Shown here: piece after piece, positions 324 to 30,364 of the stretch
Numbering within the stretch: position 1 is the first letter of the stretch
How the letters are laid out: each line of letters begins with the position of its first letter
DNA from: Aequorivita capsosiphonis DSM 23843
GTDB taxonomy: Bacteria; Bacteroidota; Bacteroidia; Flavobacteriales; Flavobacteriaceae
DNA length: 64,000 nt
Direction of reading: 5' to 3'
Assembly (NCBI RefSeq): GCF_000429125.1
Contig: NZ_AUBG01000002.1
Location: 310,001 to 374,000, forward strand
The notes under the pieces: generated by a model
Told to the model about the DNA's origin: nothing
Database searches by the model: none
Seen by the model: only the letters and a program-made list of their open reading frames with translations
Made by a program: the position numbers and the translations under genes

Positions 324-1622
324 ATGAAAGTACTACTAAAATCTGCCACTATTGTTGATGCTACAAGCAGTCATCATTTAAAGAAGTGTGATATTTTGAT
401 TGAAAACGGAAAGATTTCAAAAATAGCATCAAAAATTCAACCGTCCGACCTGCCTACCGAATGGGCAGGAAAAGTAAAAGAGGTTTCGCTTGATAATCTG
501 CACGTTTCCCAAGGCTGGTTTGATAGCAGTGTATCTTTTGGAGAACCTGGATTTGAAGAGCGGGAAACGGTTGACAATGGTTTAAAAACTGCAGCTTTAA
601 GCGGATTCACGAGTGTTGCGGTAAACGCGAACAGTTTTCCAGTTACGGACAGCAAAGGTCACATAAAATTTTTAAAATCAAAAGCTGAAGGAAATGCGGT
701 AAACCTCTACCCTATTGGCGCTTTAACCGTGGGAAGCAAAGGAGTAGATCTAGCCGAATTATATGATATGCAGAATGAAGGAGCCGTTTCTTTTTACGAT
801 TATAAACAGCCGATCGCCAATCCGAATTTATTAAAAATAGCATTACAGTACACACAAAACTTTGATGGTCTAGTTCAGTCATTTCCATTTGAAAAATCGG
901 TGGCTAGAAATGGTGTGGTTAACGAAGAAGTAAACAGCACCCGGCTTGGTTTAAAAGGAATTCCTGCACTTTCCGAAGAACTTCAAATAATCCGAGATCT
1001 CTATATTCTGGAGTACACTGGTGGAAAACTTCATATTCCTACTATCTCCACAAAAAAATCTGTGGAATTGATCAAGGATGCCAAGAAAAAAGGCTTGCAC
1101 GTTACTTGCAGCGTTTCCATCTTTAATCTGGTTTTAACGGATTCCATTTTAGATGAGTTCGACACGAATTATAAATTGATGCCTCCGCTAAGAACCAAAG
1201 AGGACAACAAAGCTTTGCTAAAAGGACTAAAAGAAGGTGTTATCGACGGTGTTACCACGGACCACAACCCAATTGATATAGAGCATAAAAAAACAGAATT
1301 TGAGCAAGCACTTTTCGGAAGTATTGGTCTTGAAGCCTGTTTTGGAGCCTTAAATAATTTATTGGGCACTGAAGAATCTGTTAAGGCTCTTACTGGATTA
1401 AAAAATGTTTTTAAAATTCCTTCAGACCAGCCTGGCGGCCAGGCAGGAAAAATTGAGGAAGGCAATATAGCAGAATTTACACTTTTTAACCCTGATGGAA
1501 TCTCTAAATTTGCTGAGGATGATATTCTTTCCACCTCCAAAAACGCTGCATTACTAGGCATTAAGCTAAAAGGCAAAGTTTACGGAATATTTGCTAATAA
1601 CCAATTGATAACAAAAGAATAA
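324..1622 (+). CDS. Dihydroorotase-like amidohydrolase, probably non-catalytic
   Basis: This 432-residue protein has the length and layout of class I dihydroorotases of the amidohydrolase superfamily, which cyclise carbamoyl-aspartate in pyrimidine synthesis. The family segment D-x-H-x-H-x-R-E-P-G reads DSSVSFGEPG here (near residues 67-76), so both metal-binding histidines are serine. The later metal His region reads TCSVSIFNLVLTD and also lacks its His. The late catalytic Asp is kept in TTDHNPID. Known dihydroorotase-like paralogues without ligands act as non-catalytic partners or have unknown roles. I infer the same here, with a true PyrC elsewhere in the genome. The stop overlaps the next start by one base. 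Confidence 0.85.
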   Translation: MKVLLKSATIVDATSSHHLKKCDILIENGKISKIASKIQPSDLPTEWAGKVKEVSLDNLHVSQGWFDSSVSFGEPGFEERETVDNGLKTAALSGFTSVAVNANSFPVTDSKGHIKFLKSKAEGNAVNLYPIGALTVGSKGVDLAELYDMQNEGAVSFYDYKQPIANPNLLKIALQYTQNFDGLVQSFPFEKSVARNGVVNEEVNSTRLGLKGIPALSEELQIIRDLYILEYTGGKLHIPTISTKKSVELIKDAKKKGLHVTCSVSIFNLVLTDSILDEFDTNYKLMPPLRTKEDNKALLKGLKEGVIDGVTTDHNPIDIEHKKTEFEQALFGSIGLEACFGALNNLLGTEESVKALTGLKNVFKIPSDQPGGQAGKIEEGNIAEFTLFNPDGISKFAEDDILSTSKNAALLGIKLKGKVYGIFANNQLITKE

Positions 1623-1942
1623 TGAGTGCTTCTCCATTAGGAAAATCTACTGCTTTAATTGCTTATGCGCCTTTTGTAGGGTTTATAATTGCCTATTTTA
1701 TTAATACAGATGAAGACCATGCCTTTGCCACATGGCATATAAAAAATATGTTTGGACTTTTCTTGTTATTTATCATTTCACTCGTTATACAATCACAAAT
1801 TGATGTAACTGTTGGTGATGTTCTTTGGATGTTATGTTGCGTATTATGGTTGTATTCTTGGGCGATGGCTTTCTATAATCAGCGCAGAGGAATTCCTTTT
1901 CTAAGTGAAAAATTTCAGGAGTGGTTTAAGTTTCTAAGTTGA
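1622..1942 (+). CDS. Small DUF4870-like membrane protein
   Basis: A 106-residue protein with three hydrophobic segments: roughly residues 10-28 (ALIAYAPFVGFIIAYFI), 41-58 and 66-84. It ends with a conserved-looking tail, IPFLSEKFQEWFK. The ATG shares one base with the preceding stop, so translation is coupled to the dihydroorotase-like gene. The layout resembles small DUF4870/TMEM-type proteins, whose function is unknown. The next gene is a paralogue with an almost identical C-terminal motif (PFLGEQFQEWFKGI), which suggests tandem duplication. Confidence 0.75.
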   Translation: MSASPLGKSTALIAYAPFVGFIIAYFINTDEDHAFATWHIKNMFGLFLLFIISLVIQSQIDVTVGDVLWMLCCVLWLYSWAMAFYNQRRGIPFLSEKFQEWFKFLS

Positions 1943-1993
1943 AAAGTATTGGCTATCTTTAAATCTTAAACTTCTTACCTAAACAAAAAAAAT

Positions 1994-2317
1994 ATGGATA
2001 CAAATACTGATAATGGTAAAACAGTTGCCATCATTGCCTATATAACCTTGATTGGATGGATTATAGCTTTGGTGATGAACAACGGCAATAAAACCGCATT
2101 GGGCTCATTCCACGTTCGTCAAGCCTTAGGAATTATGTGCGTAGGTGTTGTTTTAGCAATAGTTTCAGGAGTTCTTGGGATTTGGATTCTTTCATCAATT
2201 ATACAACTGGCGTTATTAGTATTCTGGATTCTAGGGCTAGTAAGTGCGGTACAAGGTGAAATGAAACCTGTTCCTTTCTTGGGAGAGCAATTTCAAGAAT
2301 GGTTTAAGGGAATTTAA
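1994..2317 (+). CDS. Small DUF4870-like membrane protein (paralogue of the preceding gene)
   Basis: A 107-residue protein with hydrophobic segments near residues 11-28 and 44-78. It shares with its neighbour an N-terminal AxIAYxxxxGxIIA pattern and a C-terminal VPFLGEQFQEWFKGI tail. It begins 51 bases after that gene and ends just before a strong terminator, so it is probably the last gene of the operon. Function is unknown. The conserved aromatic tail may be a membrane-interface or partner-binding element (inference). Confidence 0.75.
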   Translation: MDTNTDNGKTVAIIAYITLIGWIIALVMNNGNKTALGSFHVRQALGIMCVGVVLAIVSGVLGIWILSSIIQLALLVFWILGLVSAVQGEMKPVPFLGEQFQEWFKGI

Positions 2318-2335
2318 TTTTATAAAAACTTTTAA

Positions 2336-2387
2336 CAAGACCTTTTATGCTGAAGTCACTTCAGTTTAAAAGGTCTTGATTATTTTT
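2336..2387 (+). terminator. Strong intrinsic terminator whose T-tract overlaps the next promoter
   Basis: CAAGACCTTTTA at 2336-2347 pairs perfectly with TAAAAGGTCTTG at 2367-2378. The inner arms CTGAAG and CTTCAG extend the stem. ATTATTTTT follows, and its last part is also the -7 box of the next gene. Confidence 0.85.
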
Positions 2388-2388
2388 G
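2381..2388 (+). promoter_or_regulatory. -7 promoter box of the esterase gene
   Basis: TATTTTTG matches the Bacteroidota -7 consensus TAnnTTTG. It ends six bases before the ATG at 2395, so transcription should start at or very near the start codon, giving a leaderless or near-leaderless message. Confidence 0.65.
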
Positions 2389-2394
2389 CAAACT

Positions 2395-3051
2395 ATGGAA
2401 AAACAAACTTTACTTTTAGAGCACAATTTTAGAGCAGCTAAAAATTCTTCTGAAAAACCACCGGTTATAATTATGCTCCACGGTTTTGGCAGCGATGAGA
2501 ATGACTTATTCTCCTTTGCCAGCGAATTGCCTGAAAAATATGCAATCGTATCCCTAAAAGCTCCAATCAAAATGCAACCATCCGGGAATGCTTGGTACAA
2601 TATCTACTTCGATGATTCCCAAGGAAAATTCAGCGATGATGAACAAGCAATTGCCTCGCGAGAGTTGGTTTCAAAATGTATAGATGAAGTTGTTGAAAAA
2701 TATAAGGTTAATGGCCAAGACGTTACTCTTTTAGGTTTCAGCCAAGGAACAATTTTAAGTTTCGCAGTTGCGTTAAGCTATCCTGAAAAAGTGAAGAATG
2801 TAATCGGTTTAAGTGGATATATAAACGAAGAAATTCTAAAAGCTGGTTATGAAAATAATGACTTTAATAAATTGAGTGTTTATACTTCACATGGAAGCGT
2901 AGATCAAGTAATCCCAGTGCAATGGGCCAGAAAAACGGAACCTTTCCTAAAGAAACTGAATATTGAATGTACCTATTCAGAGTTTCCGGTTGGTCACGGA
3001 GTTGCGCCTCAGAATTTTCACGAATTAAAGGAATGGCTCGGTGAAAAGTAG
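2395..3051 (+). CDS. Alpha/beta hydrolase of the phospholipase/carboxylesterase family
   Basis: A cytosolic 218-residue protein with the nucleophile elbow GFSQG (Ser near 116), an oxyanion-region HGFGSDEND near residue 29, a likely acid Asp in GSVDQVIP and the catalytic His in VGHGV. It matches the serine esterase family that includes small carboxylesterases and acyl-protein thioesterases. The substrate is unknown. I chose the ATG at 2395 rather than an in-frame TTG at 2386, which lies inside the -7 box. Its stop codon is part of a heptamer tandem repeat. A second, more distant GYSQG hydrolase lies at 43108-43749. Confidence 0.85.
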   Translation: MEKQTLLLEHNFRAAKNSSEKPPVIIMLHGFGSDENDLFSFASELPEKYAIVSLKAPIKMQPSGNAWYNIYFDDSQGKFSDDEQAIASRELVSKCIDEVVEKYKVNGQDVTLLGFSQGTILSFAVALSYPEKVKNVIGLSGYINEEILKAGYENNDFNKLSVYTSHGSVDQVIPVQWARKTEPFLKKLNIECTYSEFPVGHGVAPQNFHELKEWLGEK

Positions 3052-3076
3052 TCGGTAGTCGGTAGTCGGTAGTCGG
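3049..3076 (+). repeat. TAGTCGG heptamer, four perfect tandem copies
   Basis: TAGTCGG occurs at 3049, 3056, 3063 and 3070. The first copy contains the TAG stop of the upstream esterase gene. The same heptamer forms the 3' end of the glycosyltransferase gene near 12941 on the other strand. Confidence 0.95.
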
Positions 3077-25184: not shown

Positions 25185-25215
25185 TTGCAAAACACAGTCA
25201 TTTTCGCTACTTTTG
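25185..25215 (+). promoter_or_regulatory. Promoter of the fused E1 gene
   Basis: TTG at 25185-25187 and TACTTTTG at 25208-25215, separated by 20 bases, fit the -33/-7 pattern. The ATG at 25236 lies 20 bases downstream. Confidence 0.65.
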
Positions 25216-25235
25216 CAAATATAAAAAATAATGAG

Positions 25236-27647
25236 ATGCAGACAGATCCAAAGACTAACAGCGATATATCCTTTGAAGATTTCAAAGACACAGTTTTAAA
25301 CGATTATAAAATTGCGGTAACCAGTCGTGAATGTAGTTTATTGGGCCGTCGTGAAGTTCTTACCGGAAAAGCAAAATTTGGAATTTTTGGCGATGGAAAA
25401 GAAGTGCCACAATTAGCCTGGGCAAAAGCCTTTAAAAACGGCGATTGGCGTAGTGGATATTACCGCGACCAGACTTTTATGATGGCTATTGGAAAATTGA
25501 CTATTCAACAGTTTTTCGCAGGTCTTTATGGACATACCGATATTAACGCGGATCCAATGAGCGCCGGGAGACAGATGGGTGGCCACTTTGCTACTCACAG
25601 TCTAAATGAAGATGGCAGTTGGAAAAATCTTACCGAGCAGAAAAACAGTAGTCCAGATATTTCACCAACAGCTGGACAGATGCCAAGACTTTTAGGCTTG
25701 GCGCAAGCATCAAAAATATTTAAAAACGTAAAAGGAATTGAAGACAAAAACTTCTCCGTAAAAGGGAATGAGGTTGCTTGGGGAACTATAGGAAATGCCA
25801 GTACTAGTGAAGGTCTTTTTTGGGAAACCATAAACGCCGCTGGTGTTTTGCAAGTTCCCATGGTGATGAGCGTTTGGGATGATGAATACGGAATTTCCGT
25901 TCACGCAAAATATCAAACCACAAAAGAAAATATTTCTGAAGTTTTGAAAGGCTTTCAACGCAATGAAGACGAAAACGGCTATGAAATTATTCGTGTAAAA
26001 GGTTGGGATTACCCAGAGCTTATTGATGTTTACAACCGTGCTTCAAAAATTGCACGCGAAGAACACGTTCCAGTTCTTATACACGTACAGGAATTAACAC
26101 AACCTCAAGGTCACAGTACTAGTGGTTCGCACGAACGTTACAAAAGCAAAGACCGTCTTGGTTGGGAAAGAGAAAATGACTGTAATGTAAAAATGCGTGA
26201 GTGGATCATTGCAAGCGATATTGCTTCGGATGAAACACTGATAGAAATAGAGAAAGAAATAAAAAAACAAGTTCGTGACGGCAAGAAAGCGGCTTGGGAA
26301 GCATTCGTTTCACCTCAGAAAAGCGAACAGGAAGAAGCTGTTCTATTACTTGGAAATCTAGCCGAAAGCAGTTCGAACAAAAATTTCATTGAAAAAATAA
26401 AAGAGGAACTTGCCGCAGATAAAGAACCTTTGCGAAGAGACATTATTGCAGCTTCAAGAAAAGCCTTACGATATGTTACGGGTGAAGATTCTTCTGAAAA
26501 GAAACAACTTCAGGACTGGATCGCTAATTATTTCGAATTAATCCAACCAAAATTTAGTGCGCATCTTTATTCCGAAGCAATAGAGAATGCTAAAACCGTT
26601 GAAGAAGTACTTCCAACTTACGCTGACGATGCCGAAGATGTGGATGGCCGTGTAGTGATAAGAGACAACTTTGATAGTCTTTTTGAAAAACACCCAGAAG
26701 TTTTGATTTTTGGAGAAGACAGTGGCGAAATTGGCGATGTAAACCAAGGCTTGGAAGGAATGCAGGAAAAATACGGTAAACTAAGAGTTGCTGATGCTGG
26801 AATTCGCGAAGCTACCATTATGGGGCAAGGAATCGGGATGGCGATGCGTGGCTTGCGTCCCATTGCTGAAATTCAATATTTAGATTATATACTGTACGCG
26901 CTTCAAATAATGAGTGATGATTTAGTGACGGTTCGTTACAGAACTAACGGCACTCAAAAAGCACCATTGATCGTGCGAACGCGTGGCCACAGACTTGAAG
27001 GTATATGGCATAGTGGCTCACAAATGGGCGGTTTGATTCACTTGTTGCGCGGAATGTATGTTCTAGTACCAAGAAATATGACCAAAGCCGCAGGTTTTTA
27101 TAATACTTTACTAGAAACTGACGAACCTGCTTTAGTGATTGAATGTTTAAACGGCTATCGTTTAAAGGAAAAAATGCCAAATAATCTCGGTGAATTTAAA
27201 ACTCCAATTGGAGTTGTAGAAACAATAAAAGAAGGAACAGATATTACTTTGGTATCCTACGGAAGCACTTTGAGAATTGTTGAAGAAGCTGCAAAAGAAT
27301 TACAACAAGCAGGTATTGATGCTGAAGTAATTGACGTGCAAAGTCTCCTTCCTTTAGATATTAATCACGATATGGTAAAGAGTGTTGCTAAAACCAACAG
27401 ACTTCTCGTTATAGACGAAGATGTTCCCGGTGGAGCTTCTGCCTATATCTTAAACCATATTGTAGAAGAACAGGGAGGTTACAAATATATGGACAGCAAA
27501 CCGCAGACACTTTCAGCTAAAGAGCACCGTCCGTCTTATGGTACCGATGGAGATTATTTTAGCAAGCCTTCATCAGAAGATATCTATGAAAAGGTATATG
27601 AAATTATGCACGAAGCAAATCCTTCGAAATTTCCTAAGTTAAGATAA
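25236..27647 (+). CDS. Fused alpha/beta 2-oxoacid dehydrogenase E1 component
   Basis: An 803-residue thiamin-diphosphate enzyme with the E1-alpha part first (about 1-370) and the E1-beta part second (about 470-800). The alpha part has GYYRDQTFMMAIG, RQMGGHFATHS and a ThDP-region TIGNASTSEGLFWETINAAGVLQVPMVMSVWDDEYGIS. The beta part has IFGEDSGEIGDVNQG, the Glu-containing RVADAGIREATIMGQGIGMAMRGLRPIAEIQY and a C-terminal transketolase domain. Heterotetrameric E1 genes are normally separate, but Bacteroidota commonly fuse them. The substrate is probably a branched-chain 2-oxoacid or pyruvate. No E2 or E3 gene is adjacent. I chose the ATG at 25236 because the longer frame begins inside the promoter. 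Confidence 0.9.
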   Translation: MQTDPKTNSDISFEDFKDTVLNDYKIAVTSRECSLLGRREVLTGKAKFGIFGDGKEVPQLAWAKAFKNGDWRSGYYRDQTFMMAIGKLTIQQFFAGLYGHTDINADPMSAGRQMGGHFATHSLNEDGSWKNLTEQKNSSPDISPTAGQMPRLLGLAQASKIFKNVKGIEDKNFSVKGNEVAWGTIGNASTSEGLFWETINAAGVLQVPMVMSVWDDEYGISVHAKYQTTKENISEVLKGFQRNEDENGYEIIRVKGWDYPELIDVYNRASKIAREEHVPVLIHVQELTQPQGHSTSGSHERYKSKDRLGWERENDCNVKMREWIIASDIASDETLIEIEKEIKKQVRDGKKAAWEAFVSPQKSEQEEAVLLLGNLAESSSNKNFIEKIKEELAADKEPLRRDIIAASRKALRYVTGEDSSEKKQLQDWIANYFELIQPKFSAHLYSEAIENAKTVEEVLPTYADDAEDVDGRVVIRDNFDSLFEKHPEVLIFGEDSGEIGDVNQGLEGMQEKYGKLRVADAGIREATIMGQGIGMAMRGLRPIAEIQYLDYILYALQIMSDDLVTVRYRTNGTQKAPLIVRTRGHRLEGIWHSGSQMGGLIHLLRGMYVLVPRNMTKAAGFYNTLLETDEPALVIECLNGYRLKEKMPNNLGEFKTPIGVVETIKEGTDITLVSYGSTLRIVEEAAKELQQAGIDAEVIDVQSLLPLDINHDMVKSVAKTNRLLVIDEDVPGGASAYILNHIVEEQGGYKYMDSKPQTLSAKEHRPSYGTDGDYFSKPSSEDIYEKVYEIMHEANPSKFPKLR

Positions 27648-27712: not shown

Positions 27713-28234
27713 ATGAAATACATTACTTCGTTCGTTTTATCTATTTTTCTAATTTCAATAAGCCACTCACAGGTCATAACAGATAATGTTCGTGATGTTT
27801 CTGAAAGAGAAGTGCCCAGGGCTGTTAAGGAAAATCAAAAGTCATTTTTTCCTTTAAAATTTAATACGAATTGGCAGGCTATATCTATAAGTGAAGTTAT
27901 TGATCCTAAAAGTTTGAGATATGTTGCAAAATTTGAAGATGGTGATAGATCAGGGTTTACAGCCTCATACCTTCCAAGTGGACTATTGATTTTCAATTCA
28001 GAATTCATGCCCGCTAAAATAATTCCGTTAGATATTCGACTTGATATAGCCAAAGAATTTGAAAAATTTTCAATTGAATCTGCAGTTTTTATAACTTTTT
28101 ACAAGCCCAATAGAAAAATTTATATGGTGAAATTACTTCGAGATACCGGATTTTTCTATGTTTATTATAATGCTGACGGTATAAAACTACCCGAAACTAC
28201 CATTTCACCAGAATTAGTGGTGTTGAAGAAATAG
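27713..28234 (+). CDS. Exported hypothetical protein
   Basis: A 173-residue protein with a signal peptide (MKYITSFVLSIFLISISHS, cleavage before QV). The mature part has the rhythm of PepSY-like domains: a helix containing VPRAVKENQKSFFP, then strands such as RYVAKFEDGDRSGFTASYLPSGLLIF, repeated in weaker form near the end. This is pattern recognition only. It starts 66 bases after the E1 gene on the same strand. GGGG/CCCC (28314-28330) forms a small hairpin downstream. Confidence 0.6.
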   Translation: MKYITSFVLSIFLISISHSQVITDNVRDVSEREVPRAVKENQKSFFPLKFNTNWQAISISEVIDPKSLRYVAKFEDGDRSGFTASYLPSGLLIFNSEFMPAKIIPLDIRLDIAKEFEKFSIESAVFITFYKPNRKIYMVKLLRDTGFFYVYYNADGIKLPETTISPELVVLKK

Positions 28235-28416
28235 GGGCCGCAGTTAATTCTTTAATTTCAATCGAATTGATTAACATTCATTTTAAATTTTTTTTTATTT
28301 TAAAATGAAAATTATTAGGGGTATTCCCCCAAATTTCAATTTAATTCAATAAATATTTGGATTTTAAATTAATTTTATTCTATATTAGCCATCTAATTAA
28401 GAAAAGAAACAAGTTT

Positions 28417-28461
28417 ATGTCATTCATCAGTTTAAATAATAATAATAACGAGCTGCCGTAA
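28417..28461 (+). CDS. Asparagine-rich leader peptide of asnB
   Basis: A 14-codon frame encodes MSFISLNNNNNELP, with five consecutive Asn codons (AAT x4, AAC; 28435-28449) and a TAA at 28459-28461. It lies 22 bases upstream of a perfect terminator and 215 bases upstream of asparagine synthetase. Leader peptides rich in the end-product amino acid define ribosome-mediated attenuators such as trp and his. I therefore read this as an Asn sensor. ACAAGTTT (28409-28416), just before the ATG, is complementary to AAACTTGT (28465-28472), just after the stop. Confidence 0.8.
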   Translation: MSFISLNNNNNELP

Positions 28462-28482
28462 CACAAACTTGTCGCGATATAC

Positions 28483-28518
28483 AGCCCGTCAGGTTTATTC
28501 CTGACGGGCTTTTTTTTT
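28483..28518 (+). terminator. asnB attenuator terminator
   Basis: AGCCCGTCAGG (28483-28493) and CCTGACGGGCT (28500-28510) form a perfect 11-bp stem with a six-base loop, followed by eight T residues. CGAGCTG (28449-28455), at the end of the leader frame, can pair with CAGCCCG (28482-28488) with one mismatch and would block the terminator. A ribosome stalled on the Asn codons leaves it free; one at the stop codon covers it. Confidence 0.85.
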
Positions 28519-28675
28519 GGCTTCGATTCATCCCGTTGAAAAAACGGGATTACTCAGCCACCTTAAATTTTCAAGTTTCATTCAAACTCTAGAATTAATC
28601 ATTTAGTAGAACTCAATATAAAATAATAATTATAGAAGTTTCGAATTAACGAATTAACCAAATAAAAATAATATT

Positions 28676-30364
28676 ATGTGTGGAATTGTATGTGCATTCG
28701 ATCTAAAAAGGCCCTCGGAAGAGCTACGGCCTCAATTATTAACTATGGCAAAACGTCTGAGACATCGTGGTCCTGACTGGAGCGGAGTTTTTAGCAATAA
28801 GAATGCTATTATGGCTCACGAACGTTTGGCCATTGTAGACCCTACTTCGGGGAAACAACCGTTGTTTTCTGAAGATAAAAAGCTAGTTTTAGCTGCCAAT
28901 GGCGAAATTTACAATCATTTGGAACTTCGTAAACAATTTGAAGGTAAATACAACTTTCAAACAAAAAGCGATTGTGAAGTAATCTTGGCACTTTTCAAAG
29001 AAAAAGGCCCTTCCTTTTTGGATGAGCTTAACGGAATCTTCGGCTTCGCTTTATATGATGTTGATACAAATGAATATCTAATTGCACGCGATCATATGGG
29101 GATCATCCCTCTTTATATGGGTTGGGATAAAGATGGTACTTTTTATGTCGCGAGTGAGCTAAAAGCTTTGGAAGGTTTCTGTACTAAAATTGAACTCTTC
29201 CCTCCTGGTCATTATTTGCACAGCAGCAACGGTCAACTAACGCGATGGTGGACCCGTGATTGGATGGAATTCAATACGGTAAAAGAAAATGAAACGAGCA
29301 TTGAAGATCTGCGTGATGCCTTAGATGCAGCCGTAAAAAGACAACTGATGAGCGATGTACCTTATGGTGTTTTACTTTCGGGAGGATTAGATTCTTCTAT
29401 TACCTCTGCCCTAGCCAAAAAATACGCTGATAAACGTGTGGAATCAGGTGACACCGAAGGAGCCTGGTACCCAAGACTGCATTCCTTTGCCGTTGGTTTA
29501 GATGGATCGCCAGACTTAGCGGCAGCTAAAATAGTTGCAGACCACCTCGACACTGTACATCACGAAATAAATTTCACCATTCAGGAAGGTTTAGATGCCA
29601 TTCAAGATGTTATTTATCACGTAGAAACTTATGATATTACAACCATCCGCGCTTCTACCCCGATGTTCTTATTGGCACGCGCCATTAAGGCAATGGGTAT
29701 AAAAATGGTGCTTTCAGGCGAAGGCGCCGACGAGATTTTTGGAGGATATCTATATTTCCACAAAGCGCCTTCAGCAAAAGATTTTCACGAAGAAAACGTA
29801 CGAAAATTAGATAAACTACATATGTACGATTGCCTTCGTGCCAATAAATCCTTGGCTTCTTGGGGTATTGAAGGCCGAGTTCCTTTCCTCGACAAAGAAT
29901 TTATGGATGTTGCCATGCGCCTCAACCCAAAGGACAAAATGATAATTGCCGGAAAAAAAGGATCAAAAGACAAACAAGCCATGGAAAAATGGGTGCTTCG
30001 CGAAGCCTTTGGAGATATGCTGCCACCAGAAGTAGCGTGGCGACAAAAAGAGCAATTTAGCGACGGCGTAGGTTATAGCTGGATTGACTCCTTAAAAGAA
30101 ATGGTAAACGAAAAAGTAACGGACGATCAAATAGCCAATGCCCATTACCGCTTCCCAATTCAGACTCCCACCAGTAAAGAAGAGTTCTACTACAGAACCA
30201 TTTTTGAAGACCACTTCCCTAGTGATGCAGCGGCCTTAACAGTGCCAAGCGTGCCAAGTGTGGCCTGCAGCAGCCAAGTTGCATTGGATTGGGATGAGAG
30301 TTTTAAGAATATGAACGACCCTAGCGGACGGGCTGTTGCCAGTGTACACGATGACGCTTACTAG
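28676..30364 (+). CDS. asnB: Asparagine synthetase B, glutamine-hydrolysing
   Basis: A 562-residue enzyme that converts aspartate, glutamine and ATP to asparagine. The N-terminal class II amidotransferase begins MCGIVCAFD with nucleophile Cys2 after Met removal, and has RHRGPDWSG and NGEIYNH. The synthetase domain has the PP-loop SGGLDSS near residue 235 and SGEGADEIFGGY. The length is that of AsnB. It is preceded by an Asn-codon leader peptide and terminator and followed by a terminator, so it is a monocistronic, probably attenuated unit. Confidence 0.97.
   Translation: MCGIVCAFDLKRPSEELRPQLLTMAKRLRHRGPDWSGVFSNKNAIMAHERLAIVDPTSGKQPLFSEDKKLVLAANGEIYNHLELRKQFEGKYNFQTKSDCEVILALFKEKGPSFLDELNGIFGFALYDVDTNEYLIARDHMGIIPLYMGWDKDGTFYVASELKALEGFCTKIELFPPGHYLHSSNGQLTRWWTRDWMEFNTVKENETSIEDLRDALDAAVKRQLMSDVPYGVLLSGGLDSSITSALAKKYADKRVESGDTEGAWYPRLHSFAVGLDGSPDLAAAKIVADHLDTVHHEINFTIQEGLDAIQDVIYHVETYDITTIRASTPMFLLARAIKAMGIKMVLSGEGADEIFGGYLYFHKAPSAKDFHEENVRKLDKLHMYDCLRANKSLASWGIEGRVPFLDKEFMDVAMRLNPKDKMIIAGKKGSKDKQAMEKWVLREAFGDMLPPEVAWRQKEQFSDGVGYSWIDSLKEMVNEKVTDDQIANAHYRFPIQTPTSKEEFYYRTIFEDHFPSDAAALTVPSVPSVACSSQVALDWDESFKNMNDPSGRAVASVHDDAY

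Follow-up and report, generated by a model that had tools for sequence, protein, structure and literature searches.

A short asparagine-rich reading frame followed by an intrinsic terminator lies upstream of asnB in Aequorivita capsosiphonis DSM 23843, an arrangement that we read, with a probability of roughly 90%, as a ribosome-mediated transcription attenuator sensing charged tRNA-Asn. Coordinates refer to the window, the whole 64,000-nucleotide stretch of contig NZ_AUBG01000002.1 (positions 310,001 to 374,000 of the forward strand) that was analyzed. The 14-codon frame (28417-28461, plus strand) encodes MSFISLNNNNNELP; it opens with an ATG at 28417-28419, carries five consecutive Asn codons (four AAT and one AAC) at 28435-28449 and closes with a TAA at 28459-28461. 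Between these clustered Asn codons and the structural gene stands the terminator (28483-28518, plus strand), an 11-bp stem whose arms, AGCCCGTCAGG (28483-28493) and CCTGACGGGCT (28500-28510), enclose a TTTATT loop and lead into a T run (28510-28518). The downstream gene makes the amino acid that would be sensed: the 562-aa product of asnB (28676-30364, plus strand, ATG at 28676) matched the family of the glutamine-hydrolysing asparagine synthase B (NF006949) with 901.8 bits against a cut-off of 499. Frame, terminator and gene had all been placed here by the original prediction, and the sequence confirmed each of them. Its proposal of leader attenuation by charged tRNA-Asn was also supported, as the logic fits the 51 leaders modelled and the terminator arms covary.

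A search of the organism's own genome returned AsnB as the sole match at E ≤ 0.001 and no match to AsnA (PF03590); AsnB is the sole asparagine synthetase found in this genome. The gene for the asparagine-tRNA ligase (asnS) is present as well, and a scan of the stretch about its start found no short frame rich in Asn. Counting both strands, the window has three short ATG frames of 8-25 aa that contain a homopolymer run of at least four residues, and the asnB leader is the only one of the three followed by a terminator scoring at least 22. In 20 first-order Markov copies of the window, amounting to 2.56 Mb of strand, a single frame with an Asn run arose, and no such frame had a terminator behind it.

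The same module recurs among relatives. We inspected the best 80 AsnB loci among the matches listed, nearly all of them titled Flavobacteriaceae or its genera and many from metagenome assemblies, and found an Asn-rich leader plus terminator upstream of asnB at 25, besides the window. These leaders are Asn-rich ATG frames of 12-17 codons (19 in L024) situated shortly 5' of asnB, and a strong terminator follows every one of them. Six loci with other Asn-containing frames (L025, L045, L053, L059, L062 and L080), behind which neither a terminator nor the conserved stretch that we call segment 2 follows, were scored as leaderless; two more (L040 and L070), with fewer than 100 bases upstream of asnB, are counted among the 80 but were not judgeable. 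Terminator-like hairpins of different sequence occur 150-353 bases before asnB in four of the 55 other loci (L032, L053, L054 and L068). A covariance model built from 26 sequences was then run over 397 genomes of the family. Its best 50 matches comprised 40 Asn leaders, one per genome and all of them before asnB, and 10 ordinary terminators before other genes, which were rejected as leaders; the total of 164 genomes with a match overstates the real leaders, inspection having covered the best 50. The Asn-rich leader occupies the same place in 51 distinct ATG-start sequences extracted by script, the window's included, and in three leaders read by eye and left out of the 51-leader counts (L099, with a GTG start, L108 and L111). 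Conservation of the Asn codons in relatives, a test set in advance, was thus found in the carriers of the module, which itself was confined to one branch among the loci seen.

The leader frames bear the marks of coding constraint. Across the 51 leaders there are 244 AAT and 98 AAC codons, Asn accounts for 47% of the residues after the first, and the longest run ranges from 1 to 10. AAT and AAC interchange within the frame, a synonymous change which suggests that the leader is translated, and some leaders (MFTNNLNTNYKP, MFLININSNNYQT) have Asn outside the runs as well. Downstream of the frame comes the nearly invariant segment 2, AAACTTG(T)CG (28465-28474, plus strand), which lies 3 nt beyond the stop codon in the window, as in 47 of the 51 leaders altogether; in 42, 15 nt separate segment 2 from the last Asn of the longest run. 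The residue before the stop (28456-28461 with the stop codon in the window) is Pro in 38 leaders, Thr in 12 and Arg in one. Proline before a stop codon may slow ribosome release. A small hairpin around segment 2 was also considered as the reason for the Pro/Thr codon and was rejected, giving no signal over shuffles.

Segment 2 is predicted to pair with segment 3, CG(T)CAGGTTT (28487-28496, plus strand), which reaches from the terminator 5' arm into the loop. In the window the core of this antiterminator joins AAACUUG (28465-28471) to CAGGUUU (28490-28496), and its conserved form joins AAACUUG(U)CG to CG(U)CARGUUU. The alignment of the terminator has 99.2% of its cells paired and five of 10 pairs changed on both sides, no measure being matched in more than 4 of 500 shuffles. 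For the 2:3 helix, 95.1% of the cells are paired (11 of 500 shuffles) and the covariation score was reached by 5 of 500, with one pair only changed on both sides (345 of 500). The weak covariation of this helix is explained by segment 2, which hardly varies, and it is conservation and folding that argue for the pairing. The CG extension is missing in five of 25 distinct rows, and segment 2 reads CUUGUA instead of CUUGUC in 14 of the 51 leaders.

To describe the folding, we took the RNA downstream of the ribosome at the stage when arm 4 is still unmade and calculated its best fold, whatever the pairing, with the ribosome edge set at an assumed 11 nt past the A site. A ribosome on the first Asn codon gave a mean energy of -10.12 kcal/mol; on the last Asn codon the mean was -8.94 kcal/mol (-3 or lower in all 51 leaders), and at the stop codon it was -1.23 kcal/mol (-3 or lower in three of 51). 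When the post-stop spacer was shuffled, the mean was -3.55 kcal/mol against the real -8.94, with 47 of the 51 leaders at p ≤ 0.05; in one leader (L124) the best fold for a ribosome at the last Asn codon is a different one from 2:3. Judged by sequence and energy, the antiterminator and the terminator exclude each other, and the former would be free during a stall at the Asn codons and masked once the ribosome is at the stop.

The original prediction had assigned the antiterminator to a different pairing, between CGAGCTG (28449-28455) and CAGCCCG. The two can indeed pair, and the lowest-energy fold of the window with a ribosome on the first Asn codon contains this helix (-9.2 kcal/mol). That it serves as the working switch in this species is nonetheless unlikely: the letters GAGCTG occur only in ELP-type leaders of Aequorivita-like loci and are absent from relatives with GGAACCCCG, GCAAAGACG or TATATGCCT, and CGAGCUG would be hidden by a ribosome standing at the last Asn codon. 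The conserved antiterminator is AAACUUG with CAGGUUU.

A further partner for segment 2 is predicted on the other side of the leader. Directly 5' of the leader ATG, ACAAGTTT (28409-28416, plus strand) can pair with AAACTTGT (28465-28472), both found where the original prediction had located them. ACAAGUUU 5' of the ATG is segment 1 and would compete for segment 2. The mean 1:2 pairing score over the 51 leaders was 13.98, compared with 8.93 for shuffled sequences and 7.63 for windows further upstream; taken singly, the pairing was significant at p ≤ 0.05 in 31 leaders and not significant in 20. Set against a segment 2 of another type, segment 1 scored 13.09 on average, the native combination being higher in 40 of 51. 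Changes that keep the pairing were seen in L085, L092, L119 and L124; in L087 and L114 segment 1 pairs no better with its own segment 2, and the helix is weak or missing in some leaders, such as L046. Given that segment 1 adjoins the start codon and has segment 2 as a possible partner, closure of the 1:2 helix might be the main switch, the signal being general translation speed or leader initiation instead of Asn-tRNA. We regard this as very unlikely, because such a signal leaves the 47% of Asn residues and the link to asnB unexplained.

The probable promoter of the leader (28356-28388, plus strand) consists of TTTG at 28356-28359 and TATATTAG at 28381-28388, 21 nt apart, and would place the start of transcription near 28394, about 23 nt 5' of the leader ATG. 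TAnnTTTG is the flavobacterial -7 box (PMC9723704). A motif search, run with no shuffle control, found a TAnnTTTG-like motif 28-44 nt upstream of the ATG in 39 of the 51 leaders, and in the window itself picked the box further upstream. Between the end of the terminator stem and asnB lie 25-165 nt, with a median of 65 and a value of 165 in the window. Gaps as short as 25 nt leave little space for a second promoter before asnB in several relatives, and the long gap of the window could hold one. C-rich and G-rich stretches lie between terminator and asnB at four Aequorivita loci (L001, L002, L009 and L024), lengthening the gap beyond that of most relatives. In the two leaderless loci placed within the branch of the leader carriers, L018 (Salinimicrobium) and L036 (Gillisia), where 330 bases upstream of asnB were viewed, the asnB match starts at a GTG and a promoter-like box of the TAnnTTTG type is visible by eye shortly 5' of the gene.

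The leader, its spacing, the alternative pairings and the link to asnB, as read from the DNA, suggest how the promoter may be used, how ribosomes may stall and how read-through may respond to asparagine. A ribosome translating the leader would trail RNA polymerase. With ample Asn-tRNA, it would get to the stop codon and hide segment 2 (AAACUUG), leaving segments 3 and 4 to build the terminator, and the transcript would end at about 28518. With scarce Asn-tRNA, the ribosome would pause at the Asn run with its front edge short of segment 2, which would be free to pair with segment 3 (CAGGUUU); because the 2:3 pairing would block terminator formation, asnB would be transcribed. Were no ribosome to stand between them, segment 1 could close on segment 2, and an untranslated leader would end in termination. 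More tentatively, and at somewhat less than even odds for the reading as a whole, the asnB leaders may constitute a class of attenuators that is specific for asparagine, belongs to one flavobacterial branch and has a layout of its own. With segment 1 lying before the ATG, a stalled ribosome would in this reading act as a wedge between segments 1 and 2, and the conserved Pro or Thr ahead of the stop would retain the ribosome on segment 2 once it has finished the leader, limiting leak.

The proposed attenuator resembles that of the Escherichia coli trp operon in its short leader, whose control codons specify the amino acid that the downstream genes produce, and in its competing helices 1:2, 2:3 and 3:4 (PMC1183508). 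Without leader translation the trp leader favors 1:2 and 3:4 (PMC1183508), as the untranslated asnB leader would in our scheme. The asnB leader differs in its use of asparagine instead of tryptophan and in the position of segment 1, which precedes the ATG so that the 1:2 helix would loop out the whole leader frame. Segment 1 of trp sits inside its leader frame. In Firmicutes, T-box riboswitches before asparagine genes sense tRNA-Asn charging and act on a terminator, and they bind the tRNA directly, with no leader peptide. The asnB leader is likewise proposed to sense tRNA-Asn charging at a terminator but, unlike T-boxes, by means of a leader peptide. At gathering score, Rfam had no family in the window, T-box included; loose E-values gave 16 weak matches between 28340 and 28700, none of them at gathering score and none a T-box.

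Clues for leader-peptide attenuation upstream of amino acid biosynthesis operons are on record for Flavobacterium psychrophilum, a member of the same bacterial family as A. capsosiphonis, in a study whose main text contains neither asnB nor asparagine (PMC9723704). The word asparagine is also absent from the main text of three other papers (PMC7366714, PMC2965389 and PMC4833913), the last of which cites a paper by Lopatovskaya and others on amino acid operon attenuation. A search of the open-access literature by title and the start of the abstract found no description of an Asn leader before asnB, and an earlier one may exist in print. The principle of attenuation is classical, and the asparagine specificity was not found described in the literature searched.

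Other candidate leader attenuators were identified in the same genome. A His-rich leader, MNKTVSHNHHIIFHAHAR, and a terminator lie upstream of hisG (L156:1195-1312), and a Phe-rich leader, MSTIFTFNNFWFFYFKDRTGIVI, and a terminator lie upstream of a prephenate dehydratase gene (L157:1341-1463), whose match is below the NCBIfam cut-off and above that of Pfam. Three successive Ile-rich leaders, each with its own terminator (L159:75-466), precede a pair of ilv genes (ilvE-like, 506-1393; ilvD, 1396-3069); the second and third of these units are near copies, and three attenuators in tandem are, to our knowledge, unusual. The same script found no leader-terminator unit around the homoserine dehydrogenase gene (L158). 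None of the His, Phe and Ile leaders has a strong segment before its ATG, the His leader having a weak 6-bp candidate.

The distribution of the asnB module was traced on a quick tree of the AsnB proteins from the window and 79 of the 80 loci (L070 was too short), a tree with a midpoint root only and with 29 of its 77 inner branches drawn open for low support. The 26 leader rows require two changes on it, whereas shuffled labels need 22.1 on average. With a root on the leaderless side, this would mean one gain and one loss, the latter in Salinimicrobium plus Gillisia; ancestral presence of the module followed by two losses may also account for the pattern. No Asn leader was seen in the main Flavobacterium branch loci of the 80-locus set, and the sole leader locus named Flavobacterium, L013 from a metagenome assembly, does not fall within that branch. 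Across 395 genomes of the class, which included at least 13 other family members, a search at E ≤ 1e-6, a threshold too strict for a leader of the weakness seen in genome G128, gave no match besides the organism's own genome. In a sample of 198 genomes of the phylum, 25 had an AsnB match at E ≤ 1e-150, the own genome included. The 24 others provided 20 readable upstream regions of 400 bases (16 from the same family and four from outside it), none with an Asn-run leader plus strong terminator; the other four were not anchored by the start pattern. Of the two nearest rows of this sample, L147 has an Asn-rich frame with no terminator after it, and L149 has a three-Asn frame and then weak AT-rich hairpins not seen in its congener L148.

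Least probable of all is a plain terminator of the upstream gene beside an AAT microsatellite that opened a short frame by chance, with no regulation: the AAT-rich run is of low complexity, the terminator would also end transcription from the gene at 27713-28234, and the module's position is by itself no sufficient link to asnB because the wider neighborhood is kept (the protein at 25185-27647 was matched upstream in 23 of the 25 leader loci), yet the mixed AAT and AAC codons, the Asn residues outside the runs, the 15-nt spacing, the conserved segment 2 and the covarying stem all speak against it, as do the window's next upstream gene, matched in just 10 of the 25 leader loci, and the position of all 40 inspected leaders before asnB.

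If attenuation by charged tRNA-Asn is the correct reading, asparagine joins the amino acids sensed by leader-peptide attenuation. The leaders are a set of over 50 natural variants, from a phylum in which the mechanism was otherwise found resting on sequence clues, and their 15-nt spacing makes the relation between ribosome position and RNA pairing directly testable. The two changes on the AsnB tree further suggest that the switch, standing between promoter and gene, was acquired or lost as a whole.
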